Assembly: GCF_008704495.1 (NCBI RefSeq)
Contig: NZ_CP023699.1
Location: 6,634,001 to 6,698,000, forward strand
DNA: 64,000 nt
Direction of reading: 5' to 3'
Origin: Streptomyces kanamyceticus
GTDB lineage: Bacteria; Actinomycetota; Actinomycetes; Streptomycetales; Streptomycetaceae
This document shows, one piece after another, positions 1,725 to 30,862 of this stretch. Under the pieces are notes generated by a model. The model was not told the DNA's origin and made no database searches. It worked only from the letters and a program-made list of their open reading frames with translations. Every line of letters starts with the position of its first letter. The first letter of the stretch is position 1. Made by a program: the position numbers and the translations under genes.

Positions 1725-2893
1725 TGCCGCGCAGAGGCATGACGGGCGCCGCGGCGGCGCTGACCGTGACGCTGGCGGCGGGCGCGCTCGCGGCCCCCGC
1801 GTCGGCCGCGACGCCGCGGCCCGGGCACGGCGACCACCGGCACGAGGCGACCCAGGGGGCGCTGGACGGCATCGTCGCGGAGGGCGTGCCCGGCGTGACC
1901 GCGCAGGTGCGCGACAAGTACGGCTCCTGGAACGCCGCTTCGGGCGTCGGCGACCTGAGACGGGGCACGCCGCGCGGCAAGCACGACAGCTTCCGGGTCG
2001 GCAGCATCACCAAGACGTTCGTGGCGACCGTGCTGCTGCAACTGCAGGCGGAGGGCCGGATCGATCTGGACGACACGGTGGGCAAGTGGCTGCCGGGCGT
2101 CGTCGAGGGGAACGAGCACGACGGGGACGCGATCACGGTCCGCCAGATCCTCAACCAGACCAGCGGGATCGCCGACTACTCCCGGGACGACGAGTTCTCC
2201 CGCAAGGTGTTCAGCACGGAGTTCTTCAAGCACCGCTACGACACCTGGACGCCCGAGCAGTTGGTGAAGCTCGCCATGCGCAACAAACGGGTCTTCGAGC
2301 CCGGCAAGGGCTGGGGCTACTCCAACACCAATTACGTCGTCGCCGGGATGATCATCAAGAAGGTGACGGGGAACGCGTACGGCGACGAGATCGAGCGGCG
2401 CGTCATCGAACCCCTCGACCTGAAGGCCACCATCGCCCCCGGCACCCGAGCCACCATGCCGCGGCCCAGCTCCCGTGCCTACGGCAAGCTCCCCCTGGAC
2501 CCCGAGGCCAAGACGTACGACGTGACGGAGCTCAACCCGTCCTTCGCGAGCTCCGCGGGCGAGGTCATCTCCGACTCCGCCGACCTGAACCGCTTCTACT
2601 CGGCGCTCCTCGGCGGCCGCCTGCTGCCCAAGGAGCAGCTCGCCGAGATGAAGGACACGGTCTCCCGGGGCGAGGACCGCGGCGGCAGGTACGGGCTCGG
2701 CCTCATCGAGCTGACACTGCCCTGCAAGGGGACGGTCAAGCGGACGGTCTGGGGCCACGACGGCGACCTCCACGGCTCGTCGAACCTGGCGGTGACGACC
2801 GAGGACGGCAGCCACTCGCTGGCGCTCAACATGAACGGCGACTGGGCGGGCGACGCCGACCCCGTGGCCGAGGCGGAGTTCTGCGGCAAGTAG
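1721..2893 (+). CDS. secreted serine hydrolase, copy 2 (tandem paralog)
   Basis: A 390-residue paralog of the preceding protein, nearly identical over long stretches such as the region around the SITK active site (Ser95-Lys98), YSN and HDG motifs. It has its own signal peptide (residues 1 to about 30). The chosen ATG overlaps the previous stop by four bases; a second ATG follows directly at 1724. The open frame extends upstream as a shadow across copy 1, but the signal peptide fixes the start. The coupled, near-identical pair indicates a recent tandem duplication, with differences mainly in the 'lid' region after the first motif and near the C-terminus, where substrate preference could have diverged. 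Confidence 0.9.
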   Translation: MMPRRGMTGAAAALTVTLAAGALAAPASAATPRPGHGDHRHEATQGALDGIVAEGVPGVTAQVRDKYGSWNAASGVGDLRRGTPRGKHDSFRVGSITKTFVATVLLQLQAEGRIDLDDTVGKWLPGVVEGNEHDGDAITVRQILNQTSGIADYSRDDEFSRKVFSTEFFKHRYDTWTPEQLVKLAMRNKRVFEPGKGWGYSNTNYVVAGMIIKKVTGNAYGDEIERRVIEPLDLKATIAPGTRATMPRPSSRAYGKLPLDPEAKTYDVTELNPSFASSAGEVISDSADLNRFYSALLGGRLLPKEQLAEMKDTVSRGEDRGGRYGLGLIELTLPCKGTVKRTVWGHDGDLHGSSNLAVTTEDGSHSLALNMNGDWAGDADPVAEAEFCGK

Positions 2894-2915
2894 ACCGAGG
2901 CGACCGAGGACATGC

Positions 2916-2956
2916 GAAGGGGCGGAACCCGTGGACCCACGGCGTTCCGCCCCTTC
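2916..2956. terminator. bidirectional hairpin terminator between convergent genes
   Basis: An inverted repeat pairs GAAGGGGCGGAAC (2916-2928) with GTTCCGCCCCTTC (2944-2956); an inner CCGTGG/CCACGG extends it with a one-base bulge. It sits between the serine hydrolase and the convergent endonuclease-like gene and could end both transcripts. Confidence 0.75.
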
Positions 2957-2998
2957 ACTCCCCTCCTGCGGTCCCGCGACCGCCGCACCGCGCCCGTG

Positions 2999-4054
2999 TC
3001 ATCTGGGCAGCACCACCACATACGCGGCCGGGTCCCGGTCGGTCGACGCCATCAGCGCCGTCCGTACGATCGTGGCCTGCTGCTCCAGGGAATCCCGCAG
3101 CTTCTTCGGGGTGATGTGGACGACGGTGATGCCGAGCCGCTCCAGATGCTCGCGCTTGCGCGCGTACTCGGACCACAGGGCGTCGTCGTCCTGCCTGAAG
3201 CCCTGGCGCGGCGCCCGGGTGTCCAGCTCCACGGCGACGGCCTGGTCGGGCCAGTAGGCGTCGACGCCGCCGAGGTGCGGGCCGCCGGGCAGCCGCAGGT
3301 CGACGTTCCACAGCGGGTCGGGGAGTCCGTACTCGGCGACCATTCGGTACAGCCGGTCCTCGGCGATGACGCGCCCTTCGGCGAGCAGGGAGTCGACGGC
3401 GTCCACGACGTGGGGCCGGGTGAGCAGCCGCGCGCGGTTCAACTCCCGCACGATCGCGGCCGGTTCGCAGTGCCCGCCGCGCACCGCCTCGGTGAGCAGT
3501 CGCCGCACCGCACCCGCCTCGGTGAGCTGGGCCACCGCGTCGGCGATGGCACGCGGCACCGGGGCGACGGGAACTCCCGTGATCTGCTGGGGAGTCGGCA
3601 TGCCGTGGCCGCGCACGAGCCGGGTGAACCCCACCGAACGCAGCCGCCGCGTGCGCGGCACGAGGACGTCGATGCGGTCGAGGGAGAGCAACGGGGGCGC
3701 GGACGCGAAGCGGTGCAGGGCGAGCGCCGCGAGACCCGTGATCATCGCGTCGGCGTACGCGGCGTGCGGCTCGCCCGCGCCGGGCTGCGCGGGCACGGCC
3801 CGCGCCACCCGGGCCGGGGGACGGCCCGCGTACAACAGGGCGCCGTGCAGACGCTCTTCGCTGGTGGGCGGTCCAGGGTGCAACAGGCAGACACCCGGCA
3901 GGAGTTGCTGCCAGGGGCCGCCGGGGCGGCAGTGGGCGCCCGCGTCGGCGGAGGAGATGCCGTGCGCGCCGAGCTGGGCGGTGCTCATGACGCGGAGCTG
4001 GACATCGGCGAGGTGCTGGAGGGGGAGGGGCGAGAGCGGGGTGTTGTGGTTCAT
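2999..4054 (-). CDS. DUF559/VSR-like endonuclease-fold protein
   Basis: A 351-residue cytoplasmic protein starting MNHNTPLSPL. The last about 100 residues have the pattern of the DUF559/very-short-patch-repair-like nuclease fold: a GVDAYWPDQAVAVELDT segment (the acidic residues of a PD-(D/E)xK core), then a basic helix (YARKREHLERLG) and a strand (ITVVHITPKKL). The N-terminal part resembles the winged-helix 'AbiEi antitoxin-like' leader found in many actinobacterial proteins of this type. Function is not established for the family; a role in DNA repair or toxin-antitoxin-like defence is possible. The open frame continues upstream, but this ATG is the first with a plausible protein beginning. 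Confidence 0.7.
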   Translation of the reverse strand: MNHNTPLSPLPLQHLADVQLRVMSTAQLGAHGISSADAGAHCRPGGPWQQLLPGVCLLHPGPPTSEERLHGALLYAGRPPARVARAVPAQPGAGEPHAAYADAMITGLAALALHRFASAPPLLSLDRIDVLVPRTRRLRSVGFTRLVRGHGMPTPQQITGVPVAPVPRAIADAVAQLTEAGAVRRLLTEAVRGGHCEPAAIVRELNRARLLTRPHVVDAVDSLLAEGRVIAEDRLYRMVAEYGLPDPLWNVDLRLPGGPHLGGVDAYWPDQAVAVELDTRAPRQGFRQDDDALWSEYARKREHLERLGITVVHITPKKLRDSLEQQATIVRTALMASTDRDPAAYVVVLPR

Positions 4055-4239
4055 GAAGCGGTCGTTCCCGCGACCGGTCCCCCAGCTAACCGCTGTTACA
4101 CGCCCGTCGACAAATCCGGACAAGCTCGCCCTAAAGTACGGATGTTCGACTGCCGATGAAACGGAACTTCGGCCGAACCGGAGACGACCCGCGGCCAGCG
4201 AGCCACGCGGGCCGCAGGCCGCCCCCGGACCAGCTCGGA

Positions 4240-6843
<2,604 letters not shown>

Positions 6844-26388: not shown

Positions 26389-26989
26389 AGGCCCTCCCGC
26401 CGATGACTCGGTGAGACGATCCGGGACCGCACTGCGCCTGCGGGGGTGGTGGCAGCGTGGAACATCTGAGGCACCCTAGCGGCGCGGCGGTGTATTCGTA
26501 AAACCCTCGTCACTTCTCTCAACTCAATCCACCTGGGAATCCCGCATATCAGGTCTGGCTATCACCTCCGGGTACCCAGGAATCACTGAGAGTCGACAAA
26601 GAGATGTGGCCGTATCTTGTCCCGTACGTCACAACTCATCCGGTTTAAATGGTGCATAACACCCTCGGGCGACTCTGGTGAAATGTCCGTATCGTCGGAG
26701 AATTCAAGGCCCGAGATGTGCGCGCGGCAACAATTCGAATTTCCTGCGAACGTGGTGTGTGGCGATGGAAACGATCAAGCCGAAATTGTGGCCCCCGGAA
26801 CCCACCGAATTGCCGCACGGCGACGCTCCGCTCCCGCGCCCCCTGGGCACCCCCGCGTGCGCGCCCCGCGAAGCGGTGGCCGACGATGTGTCACCGGCCG
26901 CATACCGGCGGCGTGTTGGTGGCACGATGGTCTCGGCGGGGGTGTGCGGGGTCGTACCCCCCGGGCCGGGAGAGCGACCGACCTAGGGT
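26389..26989. other. 600-bp intergenic region with an AT-richer core
   Basis: Between the acyltransferase start and the small membrane protein there is a stretch (about 26490-26720) clearly less GC-rich than the rest of the window. It probably carries promoters for both flanking genes. No tRNA, clear riboswitch or strong hairpin is visible. A weak small frame (26765-26986) lies in the second part. Confidence 0.5.
26765..26986 (+). CDS. possible small hypothetical protein (73 aa)
   Basis: A 73-residue frame starting METIKPKLWPPEPTELPHGD. It is Pro/Arg-rich with no membrane helix. Third codon positions are mostly G or C, in favour of coding, but no convincing ribosome site precedes the ATG, and other frames over the same stretch are also open. 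It ends four bases before the GTG of the small membrane protein, as coupled genes would. I do not recognise it. Confidence 0.28.
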   Translation: METIKPKLWPPEPTELPHGDAPLPRPLGTPACAPREAVADDVSPAAYRRRVGGTMVSAGVCGVVPPGPGERPT

Positions 26990-27193
26990 GTGATCAGTGT
27001 GGCCATTTCGCTGTCAGTGGTACTGCTGTTGGCGATCATCCTTGTGGTGCTCATGCGCAGTGGATCACTCAAGGCGGGCCCCGCGATCGTCGCGGTGCTC
27101 TTCGGCTTCTTCCTTGCCTCCACCGGGATGGCGCCATCCATAAACAGGTTCCTGAACGAACTGGCGCAGACCATCAACTCGATCAGCTTCTGA
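26990..27193 (+). CDS. small two-helix membrane protein
   Basis: A 67-residue protein, almost entirely two hydrophobic helices (SLSVVLLLAIILVVLM and AIVAVLFGFFLASTGM) joined by a short RSGSLKAGP turn, with a polar tail NRFLNELAQTINSISF. The GTG at 26990 is used here; a GTG at 26999 would give 64 residues and has AGGGTG at better distance. The clean sequence and codon use indicate a real gene. The function is unknown. It converges on the encapsulin operon. Confidence 0.75.
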   Translation: MISVAISLSVVLLLAIILVVLMRSGSLKAGPAIVAVLFGFFLASTGMAPSINRFLNELAQTINSISF

Positions 27194-27241
27194 GGCCCTT
27201 GGGGGAGGACGGTCGGCGCGCCCTGCCCCCAAGGGTGTTGC

Positions 27242-28648
27242 TCAGGACGCCTGTTGGAGCCCGCGCAGCGAGGCCACCAGGCGGTCCACGTCCTCCGACG
27301 TGTTGTAGAGCGAGAGCGAGGCGCGCGCCGCCGATTCCAGGCCGTAGTGCGCGAGCGCGGGCTGCGCGCAGTGGTGTCCCGCGCGGACCGCGATGCCGTC
27401 GCGGTCCAGCCAGTCGGCGACCGTCGCCGGGTCGTGCCCCGCGAGCGTGAAGGTCAGCACCGCGATCCGCTCGGGCGCCGCCCCGATCAGGGAGAGGCCG
27501 GGCACGGTGGCCATGGCCTGCTCGGCGTACGCCATGAGCGCGTTCTCGTACGCCGTGACGGCCTCCCTGTCGAAGGACGTCAGCCAGTTCAGCGCGGCGA
27601 GCAGCCCCACCACCCCGGAGATGTGCCCGGTCCCCGCCTCCAGGAGGTGCGGTGGCGGCGCGAACGTCGTCCGGTCGAAGGAGACGGACTCGATCATGTT
27701 GCCGCCGCCCTGCCACGGTTTCATCGCCGCCATCACCTCAGGGCGTGCGTACAGGGCGCCGATGCCCGTCGGGCCGAACAGCTTGTGCCCGGAGAAGGCG
27801 TAGAAGTCCGCGCCCAAGTCCTGTACGTCGACGGGCATGTGGGCGACCGCCTGCGCGCCGTCCACCAGGACCTTGGCGTCGTAGCGGTGCGCGAGCGCGG
27901 CCATCTCCTTGACCGGCGGGACGGTGCCGAGGACGTTCGACGCGTGGCTGATCGCGACGATCCTGGTCCGGTAGGAGAGCAGGTCGGCGTACGCGGCCTG
28001 GTCGATCTGCCCCGCTTCGTCCAGCGGCACGGGGACCACCCGGGCGCGCGTCTCCTTGGCGATCAACTGCCAGGGGACGATGTCCGAGTGGTGCTCGAGG
28101 ACCGGCACGAGGATGTCGTCCCCTGGCCCGAGGTTCGCCCGGCCCCAGCTCTGGGCCACCAGGTTGATCGCCTCGGTGGTGCCGCGCACGAAGGCGACGG
28201 TCTCGGGCCCCTCGGCCCCCAGGAACGAGGCGACCGCCGCGCGCCCCGCCTCGTACATCTCCGTCGCCTCGCGGGCCATGGTGTGGGCGCCGCGGTGGAT
28301 GTTGGAGTTGGCGACGCCGTAGTAGGCGGTGAGGGCCTCGATCACCTGGCGCGGCTTCTGCGTGGTGGCGGCGTTGTCGAGCCAGACGAGCGGCTGCCCG
28401 TTCACCAAGCGGTGCAGGATCGGGAAGTCCCTGCGGGCCGCCTCGGGGGAGAAGGCGCCGGGCGGCGAGAGGGCGGGCAGGGCGGGTTCGGCGGGAGCGA
28501 CGGGCTCCGCGGGAACCGTTGTGGGCACCGGGGCTTGGAGTGCGGCGGGTGCTGCCGGTGTCGCCTGTGCCGCCTGTGCCGTCGTCGGCACGGCCTCGGT
28601 GAGCGCCGTCAGCCCGGGGCCGAAACCCTGAACGTCAGGAATAGTCAT
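27242..28648 (-). CDS. cysteine desulfurase, family 2 encapsulin cargo (SufS-like)
   Basis: A 468-residue PLP enzyme that takes sulfur from L-cysteine. A disordered Ala/Pro-rich extension (residues 1 to about 68) precedes the SufS-like fold; in encapsulated desulfurases such an N-terminus carries the cargo-loading signal. Visible sites are VWLDNAATTQKP (88-99), His186 in LEHHSDI, Asp263 in LVDGAQAV, the PLP lysine Lys289 in SGHK, and the persulfide Cys427 in RAGHHCAQP. The start lies inside the shell gene (14-bp overlap), so the two are translationally coupled. No suf genes are adjacent, which argues against a housekeeping Fe-S role. Confidence 0.92.
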   Translation of the reverse strand: MTIPDVQGFGPGLTALTEAVPTTAQAAQATPAAPAALQAPVPTTVPAEPVAPAEPALPALSPPGAFSPEAARRDFPILHRLVNGQPLVWLDNAATTQKPRQVIEALTAYYGVANSNIHRGAHTMAREATEMYEAGRAAVASFLGAEGPETVAFVRGTTEAINLVAQSWGRANLGPGDDILVPVLEHHSDIVPWQLIAKETRARVVPVPLDEAGQIDQAAYADLLSYRTRIVAISHASNVLGTVPPVKEMAALAHRYDAKVLVDGAQAVAHMPVDVQDLGADFYAFSGHKLFGPTGIGALYARPEVMAAMKPWQGGGNMIESVSFDRTTFAPPPHLLEAGTGHISGVVGLLAALNWLTSFDREAVTAYENALMAYAEQAMATVPGLSLIGAAPERIAVLTFTLAGHDPATVADWLDRDGIAVRAGHHCAQPALAHYGLESAARASLSLYNTSEDVDRLVASLRGLQQAS

Positions 28649-30023
28649 GGTAGTTGGCCACCTCGACGTTCTGGAGGACGGCGATGGCGTCCTCCACCAG
28701 GACCGCGGTGTTGAAGTACGCCGTCATCAGGTACGACGTGATGCCCTTGTTGTCGACGCCCATGTTCCGCATCGACAGGCCCGGCTCGGCCTCGTCGGCG
28801 ACCTCGGCGGGCCGCAGCCCGACCACGCCCTGCTCGGCCTCGCCCATCCGCATCAGGAGGATCTCGGTGGTGCCCGTGTGGAGGCCGCCGCCGTTGGTGA
28901 ACCGCACCTTGTCCGACGGAAGCAGCGGCACTCCGCGCCAGGTGAGCAGCGGGCTGCCGAACCGGTTGTCGATCACCGGGGGCACGCCCCGGCGCGTACA
29001 TTCGCGGCCGAACGCGGCGATCGCCTTCGGGTGCGCGAGGAAGTAGCCGGGCTGCTTCCAGACCTTGGCGAGCAGCTCGTCCAGGTCGTCGGGGGTGGGC
29101 GCGCCGGTCCGCGCCTGCACGCGCTGGCCGGGGGAGACGTTGTGGAACAGGCCGAACTCGGGGTGGTTCAGGAGCGCGGACTCCTGCCGCTCGCGCAGCG
29201 CGGCGATGGTCAGGTTCGCCTGCGCGCGCGTCTGGTCGATGGGTCCGTTGTAGAGGTCGGCGACGCGGGTGTGCACGCGCAGCACGGTCTGGGCGAGCGT
29301 CATGTGGTACTCACGGGGCGCGGCCTCGTAGTCGACGTACGTCCCCGGCAGATCGACCTCCCCGACGTGCCCCGACGAGCAGTCCACCGGGACCTCGCAG
29401 CCCGCCATCGCGGCGTCGCTCGCGTTGAACGCCGCGAGCTCGGCGCCCAGCGCCTGGTCACGGTCCGCGAGTGCCGCGAGAGCGCTGCGCTCGGCACAGA
29501 GCGCCGTGCCCCGGGTGAGCGCCTGGACGCGGTACGGCATCGGCTCGGACCTGCTCCACGCGCCGAGGTCGAAGAACTGCCCGTCCCCGACCACCTCGAG
29601 CAGCGCGTCCTCGCCGTACCGCCCGGTCACCCGCTTCTCGGCGCGCCCCTGGACGATGACCCAGAGCCGGTCCGCGGCGTCGCCCTCCTGCACGATGACC
29701 TGCCCGGCCTCGAAGGACACCTCGGTGAAGGCGTCGGCGAGCTCGGCGAGCAGGGCGTCGTCGGCCTCGCACAGGTACGGCACCTCGCGTAAGTCCCCGG
29801 CGACGACGCGGGGACTGCCGTTGTCGTCGTAGGTGCTGATGCGGTCGTCGCCGAGGACGAAGGTGCGGCGCCGGTTCACGCGGTACACACCGGAGTCGAG
29901 GTCCACCCAGGGCAGGGCGCGCAGCAGGTACCGGGGCGTGATGCCGCGCATCTGCGGGACGGTCTTGGTGGCGGTCGCCAGTTGCCGTGCGGCATCCGGG
30001 CTGAGAGCGAGTCGGTCGGTCAT
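28635..30023 (-). CDS. family 2B encapsulin shell protein with cyclic-nucleotide-binding-like domain
   Basis: A 462-residue self-assembling shell protein of the HK97-like encapsulin superfamily. An N-terminal arm (MTDRLALSPDAARQLA, residues 1-80) is followed by a Crp-type cNMP-binding-like domain (about 83-195: EAGQVIVQEGDAADRLWVIVQG) and then the HK97 P- and A-domain region (about 215-462), ending NVEVANYHDYS. The canonical FGE and R-S/T-A phosphate-binding residues of Crp are not recognisable, so nucleotide binding is uncertain. The ATG is preceded by GGAGG, five bases away; longer in-frame starts lack one. It is the first gene of a two-gene operon with its desulfurase cargo. Confidence 0.9.
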   Translation of the reverse strand: MTDRLALSPDAARQLATATKTVPQMRGITPRYLLRALPWVDLDSGVYRVNRRRTFVLGDDRISTYDDNGSPRVVAGDLREVPYLCEADDALLAELADAFTEVSFEAGQVIVQEGDAADRLWVIVQGRAEKRVTGRYGEDALLEVVGDGQFFDLGAWSRSEPMPYRVQALTRGTALCAERSALAALADRDQALGAELAAFNASDAAMAGCEVPVDCSSGHVGEVDLPGTYVDYEAAPREYHMTLAQTVLRVHTRVADLYNGPIDQTRAQANLTIAALRERQESALLNHPEFGLFHNVSPGQRVQARTGAPTPDDLDELLAKVWKQPGYFLAHPKAIAAFGRECTRRGVPPVIDNRFGSPLLTWRGVPLLPSDKVRFTNGGGLHTGTTEILLMRMGEAEQGVVGLRPAEVADEAEPGLSMRNMGVDNKGITSYLMTAYFNTAVLVEDAIAVLQNVEVANYHDYS

Positions 30024-30290
30024 CGGAACCTCCGGGGGGCCGTGCGGACGGCTGGAGAGGACGGGTGAAGGGGACCGATCGTCCGGTCGGCGCGTCCCGG
30101 ACCACAAGGGGTCCCGTGACGGCCTTGGCATAGGCCAGGCGCAAAACCGCCGCACGGGGAACGGGCCCGCCCCCACTGAGCGGCCAGGCAGCCGATCCGG
30201 CTCCGGCGCCACCCGCCCCCACCGGCCGGTATCCGACCCGATACGTCCCTGAGGGTGGGCTATGCGCCCCTGAAAGATCCCGTTATGGCC

Positions 30291-30381
30291 GGACCGGGGA
30301 AGGGGCCCGGGAAGGGATCCGGGAAGGGATCCGGGAAGGGACCGGGAAGGGACCGGGAAGGCCCGGGAAGGCCCGGGAACG
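30291..30381. repeat. G/A-rich tandem repeat upstream of the encapsulin operon
   Basis: About seven imperfect 10-12-bp units of the kind CCGGGAAGGGAT / CCGGGAAGGGA / CCGGGAAGG, running up to the tRNA-Gly terminator. One strand is almost free of T, so it could form triplex or quadruplex-like structure. A frame through it encodes GKGPGKGSGKGS-like residues but overlaps the tRNA and is not a gene. Confidence 0.85.
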
Positions 30382-30383
30382 CG

Positions 30384-30418
30384 AAGAACCCCAGACCCTG
30401 GAGGGCTGGGGTTCTTCG
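30384..30418 (-). terminator. terminator of tRNA-Gly
   Basis: AAGAACCCCAG and CTGGGGTTCTT form an 11-bp stem (with inner CCCT/AGGG) immediately beyond the tRNA 3' end. It fits a factor-independent terminator. Confidence 0.8.
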
Positions 30419-30423
30419 TTCAG

Positions 30424-30494
30424 AGCGGGCGACGGGAATCGAACCCGCGTAGCTAGTTTGGAAGACTAGGGCTCTACCATTGAGCTACGCCCGC
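30424..30494 (-). tRNA. tRNA-Gly (anticodon TCC)
   Basis: A 71-nt cloverleaf on the minus strand. The acceptor stem GCGGGCG pairs with CGCCCGC, the D-arm is AGCTCAATGGTAGAGC, the anticodon loop is CTTCCAA with TCC, and the T-arm is GCGGGTTCGATTCCCGT. The discriminator is T, as usual for tRNA-Gly, and CCA is not encoded. It decodes GGA and GGG. Confidence 0.96.
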
Positions 30495-30648
30495 ACGGTT
30501 CGCGCCACGGCCGGAGCCGCGGTACGACAGGCATCGTAGCGGGTCGACGGGGCTTGTCGCACACCCCCTTCACCATCCCCCCTCGTACGGTCCCCGTTTA
30601 TCCGGGAGCCGCACTGCCTGCGGGCATGTACCCTACGTGTCGCACCGA

Positions 30649-30725
30649 CGGGGTGTGGCGCAGCTTGGTAGCGCGTCCGCTTTGGGAGCGGAAGGCCGTG
30701 GGTTCAAATCCCGCCACCCCGACCA
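30649..30725 (+). tRNA. tRNA-Pro (anticodon TGG)
   Basis: A 77-nt cloverleaf with acceptor CGGGGTG/CACCCCG, D-arm GCGCAGCTTGGTAGCGC, anticodon loop TTTGGGA with TGG, T-arm GTGGGTTCAAATCCCGC, discriminator A and an encoded CCA end. The C1-G72 pair and A73 are hallmarks of tRNA-Pro. Confidence 0.96.
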
Positions 30726-30778
30726 CCTTGCATCTCTCCGCGTTTCTCTCCACAAGATCGCATTGTGGCTCGACTCCC

Positions 30779-30799
30779 GCTTGCCGTTACTATGCAAGC
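30779..30799. promoter_or_regulatory. tig promoter region with a dyad over the -10
   Basis: The inverted repeat GCTTGC-N9-GCAAGC spans a TACTAT hexamer (30788-30793). A TTGTGG at 30763-30768 could be the -35, with a long 19-bp spacer. The dyad could be an operator for heat-shock or growth control of tig; no known box matches it. Confidence 0.35.
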
Positions 30800-30862
30800 T
30801 GTGTGCCCGTGTGTCTCTCAACCGGGCAGTCCCAAGAAGTCAGCCCCCAAGGAGACCGAACC

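Follow-up and report, generated by a model that had tools for sequence, protein, structure and literature searches.

Within a stretch of 64,000 nucleotides from Streptomyces kanamyceticus (contig NZ_CP023699.1, positions 6,634,001 to 6,698,000; the window, below, means this whole stretch), two overlapping genes on the reverse strand at positions 27242..30023 encode the shell of a family 2B encapsulin and a SufS-like cysteine desulfurase (CD), and the pair is best interpreted, with somewhat more confidence than doubt, as a desulfurase nanocompartment in which the docking of the cargo has been remodelled. The pair is a member of a kind already catalogued, 199 family 2B/CD operons having been reported in 2021 (PMC8346489), and its clade, called the window clade here, departs from the family 2A systems that have been studied. 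In this clade both published loading motifs of the family 2A cargo and the proposed docking phenylalanine of the family 2A shell are absent, the overlap of the two genes and the segment of the five-fold pore are conserved, the desulfurase groups with encapsulin-linked enzymes, and purifying selection acts on the shell gene and the CD gene alike.

The Shell and Desulfurase Genes

The shell gene (28635..30023, reverse strand, as are all the features of the pair given below) encodes 462 residues, as supported by the open reading frame and by profile and solved-structure matches, and the CD gene (27242..28648) encodes 468, as supported by the open reading frame and profile matches. The two overlap by 14 bp (28635..28648), the shell ending in YHDYS and a stop codon and the desulfurase beginning with MTIPD. 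Reading frames, ends, strand, overlap and family models all agree with the operon of a family 2B shell and a desulfurase that the first-pass annotation of this DNA had proposed. Residues 209-456 of the shell (28656..29399) correspond, by sequence profile, to the HK97/SrpI-like core, with 356.7 bits for PF19307 of Pfam (cut-off 22.8), and residues 102-189 (29457..29720) to a cyclic nucleoside monophosphate (cNMP)-binding-like domain (PF00027, 58.9 bits, cut-off 27.5) inserted before this core, which is the arrangement of family 2B. Consistent with that, the shell scores 631.2 bits with the NCBIfam family 2B shell model NF041163 (cut-off 400). It passes the family 2A shell model NF041162 as well (398.1, cut-off 380), despite carrying the cNMP-like domain that family 2A shells lack, and two remoter CD-linked shells (L061 and L058) likewise pass both models. 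The best match among solved structures is 9bhu (414 bits), aligned across the arm, the inserted domain and the core, SrpI (6x8m) scoring lower at 342.7 bits.

The CD passes the SufS model TIGR01979 (512, cut-off 475.1) and falls below the NCBIfam family 2A cargo model NF041166 (623 versus a cut-off of 800), the first 222 positions of which are left unmatched. In an alignment of 22 enzymes the Lys, Cys and His positions presumed to form the active site do not vary, including C427 in RAGHHCAQ (27368..27370) and K289 in SGHK (27782..27784), which we take, from what is known of SufS, to be the catalytic cysteine and the lysine that binds pyridoxal phosphate, respectively.

Absence of the Family 2A Docking Elements

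Two loading motifs, LARLANEFFS and AASPYYFLDG, have been described for the long cargo N-terminus of the family 2A system of Synechococcus elongatus (SrpI/CyD), with F262 and Y273 of SrpI as proposed cargo-docking residues (PMC8049743). After reduction of 62 shell-CD pairs to 58 distinct ones (42 of the window clade, 11 of family 2A and 5 other 2B-CD pairs), the first motif was found in 10 of the 11 family 2A enzymes, in one of the five other 2B enzymes, which is from a planctomycete, and in none of the 42 of the window clade. The second motif was found in 8 of the 11 and again in none of the 42, and either this motif or its variant RYWL in all five others. The two published motifs were the starting point for the search expressions, which were then relaxed in view of the family 2A rows, and RYWL was added once four rows had been seen; the counts for family 2A and the other 2B pairs are in part a product of this construction, which does not apply to the zero of 42.

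The shell partner has changed at the corresponding site. Through alignment to 6x8m, N420 of the window shell (28764..28766) takes the place of F262, and this position is Asn in 42/42 shells of the window clade and Phe in 11/11 of family 2A; among the other five CD-linked 2B shells Phe is kept only in the planctomycete one, the rest having P, P, A and H. The second proposed docking residue, Y273, is retained as Y431 (28731..28733; Tyr in 41/42 and His in one) and is the only one of the two residues of the SrpI-type docking site that the window clade keeps. Nearby, N438 (28710..28712), at SrpI position 280, is Asn in 41/42 and Thr in one, this position being Ser in 11/11 family 2A shells and 5/5 of the other 2B-CD shells.

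The N-terminal extension of the window desulfurase (65 residues, 28454..28648) is Ala/Pro-rich, as the first-pass annotation had described it, although the length of about 68 residues given there should be corrected to 64-65 residues before the CD domain. Its use as evidence of encapsulation is not supported, and the extension as a loading signal of the known kind is rejected: both family 2A motifs are missing from it throughout the clade, and over the 42 distinct pairs its length runs from 8 to 193 residues, 12 of them having 27 or fewer and the S. lydicus ortholog (L079) about 100. In the ortholog with the shortest one, MTTPDVPG (L039), the overlapping ATG is the sole start codon in the open frame, and any signal common to the clade would therefore be confined to the first few residues or to the folded domain. 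A count of three-residue patterns (gaps of at most two, the first five residues excluded) found the best pattern in 21 of the 42 extensions, within the range of 100 shuffles (mean 18.0, maximum 23). In bulk composition the extensions of the window clade resemble those of family 2A in Pro (0.20 vs 0.18) and Ala (0.19 vs 0.17) and differ in aromatic content (0.018 vs 0.049).

Conserved Pore, Gene Overlap and Selection

The five-fold pore segment ECTRRGVPP (residues 341-349, 28977..29003, corresponding to SrpI 189-197 in the same alignment) is identical in 43/43 distinct window-clade shells and exact in 5 of 11 of family 2A; the pore residues G194 and P196 of SrpI were taken from PMC8049743. Its RGVPP part is found in 43/43 shells of the window clade, 9/11 of family 2A and 5/5 of the other 2B-CD shells, and in 0/103 distinct 2B shells that have no CD linked to them, meaning that none was found in the stretch covered, which took in some 3.5 kb of flank at named loci and less at some. 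The YHDY-type shell end is distributed in much the same way (42/43, 11/11, 5/5 and 0/103, respectively). The 14-bp overlap is present in all 42 distinct window-clade pairs and in 8 of the 11 family 2A pairs, the remaining 2A spacings being -4 in two and +73 in one; of the five other 2B-CD pairs two have -14, and the rest -4, -8 and +3.

The ratio of nonsynonymous to synonymous substitution rates (dN/dS), pooled over 12 close pairs in which some genomes were used twice, is lowest in the HK97 core (0.16) and the catalytic domain of the CD (0.18), higher in the inserted domain (0.30) and highest in the extension (0.52), the last value being for aligned codons only, which hides insertions and deletions. 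Both the shell and the CD genes are under purifying selection.

Phylogeny of the Desulfurase and the Shell

A tree of the catalytic domains of 30 encapsulin-linked CDs (11 of family 2A, 5 other 2B and 14 of the 45 window-clade rows), rooted on 22 of 29 actinobacterial SufS sequences, joins all 30 in one clade (support 100), which supports the assignment of the window CD to these enzymes and not to housekeeping SufS. The window CD is of the same enzyme family as the housekeeping proteins, passing their model, but it stands in a separate clade from the SufS of the suf operon. The suf cluster of the same genome (sufB, partial in the stretch analysed, sufD, sufC, sufS and sufU) lies at 7.674-7.682 Mb, about 1 Mb from the pair, and the earlier remark that no suf or isc genes adjoin the pair holds. 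Within the clade the planctomycete 2B enzyme groups with family 2A (95), the actinobacterial 2B enzymes forming the other side (95), and because of this position of the planctomycete enzyme a tree constrained to hold all 2B CDs together is rejected by the approximately unbiased test (p-AU 0.0186). This tree requires no more than a single loss of the first loading motif, and that F262 was lost in parallel is therefore suggestive and not statistical.

The shell cores give a related picture. In a tree of 48 rows, computed with the inserted domain excluded, one branch (100/99) has family 2A and every CD-linked 2B shell on one side and the remaining 2B shells on the other, and a second (100/97) sets family 2A and the planctomycete shell apart from the remainder. 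Two long branches (L194 and L147_1) had been excluded from this set, the others being drawn at random; a quick tree of 78 rows that contained both also recovered the branch between CD-linked and other 2B shells (99). A single clade of the actinobacterial CD-linked 2B shells is compatible with the data but not demanded by them (p-AU 0.445). The shell tree is read as unrooted, and any direction given to the change between families 2A and 2B is therefore a matter of interpretation. With the exception of L194, the rows could be explained if CD linkage changed once and the inserted domain was gained or lost once. The CD-linked 2B shells take an intermediate place, with family 2A on one side and the remaining 2B shells on the other, and may reflect one switch of cargo. 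L194 (G263:C12) is a shell that lacks both the cNMP-like domain and, within its stretch, a desulfurase; it sits on a long branch among ordinary 2B shells and would be called family 2A if classified by the presence of the domain.

The planctomycete pair, the single case of its kind in this set, comes from the Planctomycetia metagenome-assembled genome CSMAG_2820 (L119:810-2231 and 2238-4664), and comprises a 2B shell that keeps F262 and a desulfurase with an N-terminus of 407 residues containing both family 2A-type loading motifs. It is a candidate for a basal 2B desulfurase system. The sampled systems form a natural series, from family 2A pairs with motifs and F262, through the one planctomycete 2B pair that keeps both, to four actinobacterial pairs with only the RYWL remnant, and to the window clade with none, and this series turns the function of 2B desulfurase shells and the entry of their cargo into a small set of testable questions. 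The same observations suggest that family 2 had a simpler history, in which the shell end with its overlap and the pore unite the desulfurase systems of families 2A and 2B, and one branch parts these from 2B shells that have no desulfurase linked to them.

Comparison with known systems follows the same lines. The window pair is like family 2A (PMC8049743) in its shell-CD pairing, its YHDY-type end, Y273 and the clade of its CD, as well as in the overlap and the pore, and unlike it in having the inserted domain, in lacking F262 and in lacking the loading motifs that the long cargo N-terminus of family 2A bears. It is like the listed 2B-CD operons in having a 2B shell with the inserted domain beside a CD; the main text of PMC8346489, in the portion available, does not describe the absence of the motifs, the absence of F262 or the shared overlap. 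With 2B shells of other cargo (9bhu, 9bje and 9bix, at about 45-50% identity) it shares the place of the inserted domain, but these shells lie across the 100/99 branch. The assignment of 9bhu to the other-cargo group was made by architecture, and 9bje and 9bix match the loop motifs of S. lydicus Enc1/Enc2 quoted in PMC12407261.

Proposed Model and Alternative Models of Loading

In the model that we propose, the two-gene cassette, probably translationally coupled to judge from the overlap, would give rise to an icosahedral shell bearing the cNMP-like domain and to a dedicated CD, which by its place in the tree descends from the encapsulin-cargo lineage. Cysteine would enter through a five-fold pore of the family 2A type, and the CD would release its sulfur as a persulfide inside or at the shell, where the sulfur could be held or passed on; desulfurase encapsulins are stated to store sulfur in a cited statement in PMC12407261. 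The ancestral tether, a disordered N-terminus with LARLANEFFS and PYYFL docked near F262, would have been dismantled on both partners in the window clade, and the CD, if still loaded, might be held by a remodelled site, through its folded domain or through its first residues MT[TI][PA][DE], perhaps against Y431, N420 and N438. Encapsulation is likely, given the descent of the enzyme and the kept pore and overlap. More tentatively, we suggest that the Streptomyces lineage lost both halves of the docking interaction with shell, pore, enzyme and overlap remaining under selection, which would point either to motif-free loading or to a compartment that does not enclose its enzyme.

A number of observations weigh against a desulfurase nanocompartment with remodelled docking. 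The evidence for it comes from sequence, and had encapsulation been lost, the motifs and F262 would be expected to be missing in just the same way. The docking role of F262 itself rests on weak density in electron cryo-microscopy maps from a single paper (PMC8049743), and F262 is also present in 93/105 rows of 2B shells without a linked CD; being common outside the desulfurase shells, its loss in the window clade is therefore a departure from the whole family. No N-terminal signal common to the window clade was found in the extensions. The start MT[TI][PA][DE] was considered as an independent conserved motif and rejected, because the overlap with YHDY[SA]-TGA itself fixes these residues. The pore segment, finally, could be retained for assembly and not for cysteine.

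The main rival to encapsulation is that the CD of the window clade has escaped from the shell, the operon being kept for stoichiometry or another joint role, such as that of an enzyme at work on the outer face, or else that the shell encloses some other cargo. Such an escape, which we regard as rather unlikely, would readily account for loading motifs in 0/42 enzymes, for Asn in place of F262 in 42/42 shells and for an extension that shrinks to 8 residues and has a dN/dS of 0.52 over its aligned codons. It would leave the 14-bp overlap in 42/42 pairs, the pore segment in 43/43 shells and the strong constraint on the shell core (0.16) harder to explain, as well as the retention of the pair at differing chromosomal sites. 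Alternatively, the Ala/Pro/Thr/Gly-rich extension might load the cargo by its bulk properties instead of a motif, as its similarity to the family 2A extensions in Pro and Ala content would allow; we consider this improbable, with 12 of the 42 extensions at 27 residues or fewer, one of them at 8, and with aromatic residues depleted relative to family 2A.

A further proposal, compatible with the others, concerns the inserted domain. The first-pass annotation had suggested pores or assembly that respond to a ligand by way of the cNMP-like domain, and this is weakened by the form of the phosphate cassette. The window-clade consensus, GDGQFFDLxAWTR..MPYRVxALT, is conserved and non-canonical, FFDLGAW..PMPYRV in the window shell standing in place of the CRP-type FGExAL..PRxA, and the Glu and Arg of the latter, presumably the functional residues of the canonical motif, are replaced. 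For a 2B domain, moreover, PMC12407261 reports, with reference to other work, that cyclic nucleotides are not bound. Gating by a cyclic nucleotide is therefore unlikely in the window clade. That the domain instead binds some other ligand and tunes the pore or assembly is doubtful: the pocket segment is conserved within the clade in its non-canonical form and the dN/dS of the inserted domain is 0.30, but no ligand is known, and the loss of the canonical residues and the reported lack of binding speak against it as well. In the planctomycete shell the cassette has the canonical form FGEIAL..GPRTANV, and its PF00027 score is the highest of six shells scored (76.4 vs 46.9-61.3); it appears to be the best candidate for cyclic-nucleotide binding among these shells.

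Distribution and Genomic Context

Among the matches listed, 25 of 246 Streptomyces genomes, the window's included, have a shell of at least 76% identity, one further Streptomyces shell is at 61%, and the remaining matches listed are at 50% or below; six of the 246 genomes gave no shell match at E 1e-30. Of the 24 other genomes with a close ortholog, 23 have the CD gene directly behind the shell gene, the contig of the 24th stopping just after the shell. This recurrence across Streptomyces goes beyond chance; S. noursei, like S. lydicus, carries the pair. A class-wide search matched 99/345 genomes, and at the 30 class-wide loci a CD was seen in the short flank only at the window and at one more Streptomyces.

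A larger conserved operon was considered and rejected, the commonest neighbour family, as called with a home-made gene caller, being present at no more than 5/26 loci. In the window the pair is flanked by a small hydrophobic open reading frame (end at about 27193) and a tRNA-Gly gene at 30423, 3.2 kb apart. A relative of the small frame exists in 61/61 genomes, and the tRNA-Gly lies near it at 15/29 of the relatives' loci, the distance being 48-193 bp in 13 cases and 520 and 630 bp in the remaining two; at the other 14 of 29 the tRNA was not found in the available stretch, which in one case ends after 60 bp. In two genomes (G035 and G060) the tRNA is close to the small frame and the shell-CD pair is elsewhere. 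The pair is thus a two-gene unit found at different places. The stretch 27193-30423, to judge from the 14 loci at which the tRNA was not found nearby, may be a variable place. A tRNA-linked element as a rule was rejected, with a tRNA within 3 kb at only 2/26 loci and weak flanking direct repeats (72% over 29 nucleotides). An Rfam scan of 26900-30800 returned nothing except two tRNAs.

Upstream of the shell gene there is what looks like a promoter, the two-box element CTTGTGG-N19-ACGATCGG (30075..30108, reverse strand). The pattern TTG[TC]G[GA]-N(16-22)-ACGAT occurs in 33/43 distinct window-clade upstream regions (mean 0.0 and maximum 1 in 200 shuffles), with a spacing of 18 in 18 regions and 19 in 15 and with ACGAT 35 to 126 nucleotides from the start, and in 0/119 other shell rows, second shells of two-shell operons included. 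ACGAT is missing in 4/43 regions, among them that of the ortholog with the 8-residue extension. As the mark of a regulon the element was rejected: the strict string occurs once in the S. kanamyceticus genome and in 13/246 genomes, in three of these at the cassette and in ten elsewhere, including one cassette genome (G194), and the occurrences away from the cassette look like chance. Between the shell promoter region and the tRNA-Gly lies a short tandem repeat with a 12-nucleotide unit (GGGAAGGGATCC-like, 30291-30357).

Two more 2B shells are present in the genome of the window (L059 and L060, at 3.50-3.52 and 9.10-9.12 Mb) and pass only the 2B model, with family 2A scores of 361.8 and 358.6 (cut-off 380). 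To go by our reading of the open reading frames, the first presumably adjoins a polyprenyl-synthase-like gene and the second a methyltransferase and a 2-methylisoborneol-synthase-like gene, so that this one strain likely has three 2B shells with three types of cargo. Prenyl-synthase-like neighbours are seen at many 2B shells without a linked CD, xylulose kinase not having been sought. One 2B shell (L187, G406:C36) has its N-terminal and core matches about 300 bp apart, perhaps owing to an insertion or frameshift, and at one ortholog locus a second desulfurase-like match (L048:11178-12332, reverse strand, 31% identity) lies about 1.1 kb upstream of the shell. Streptomyces lydicus NRRL ISP-5461 (L079), of the species with the published two-component 2B shell, has a shell-desulfurase pair of the window type.

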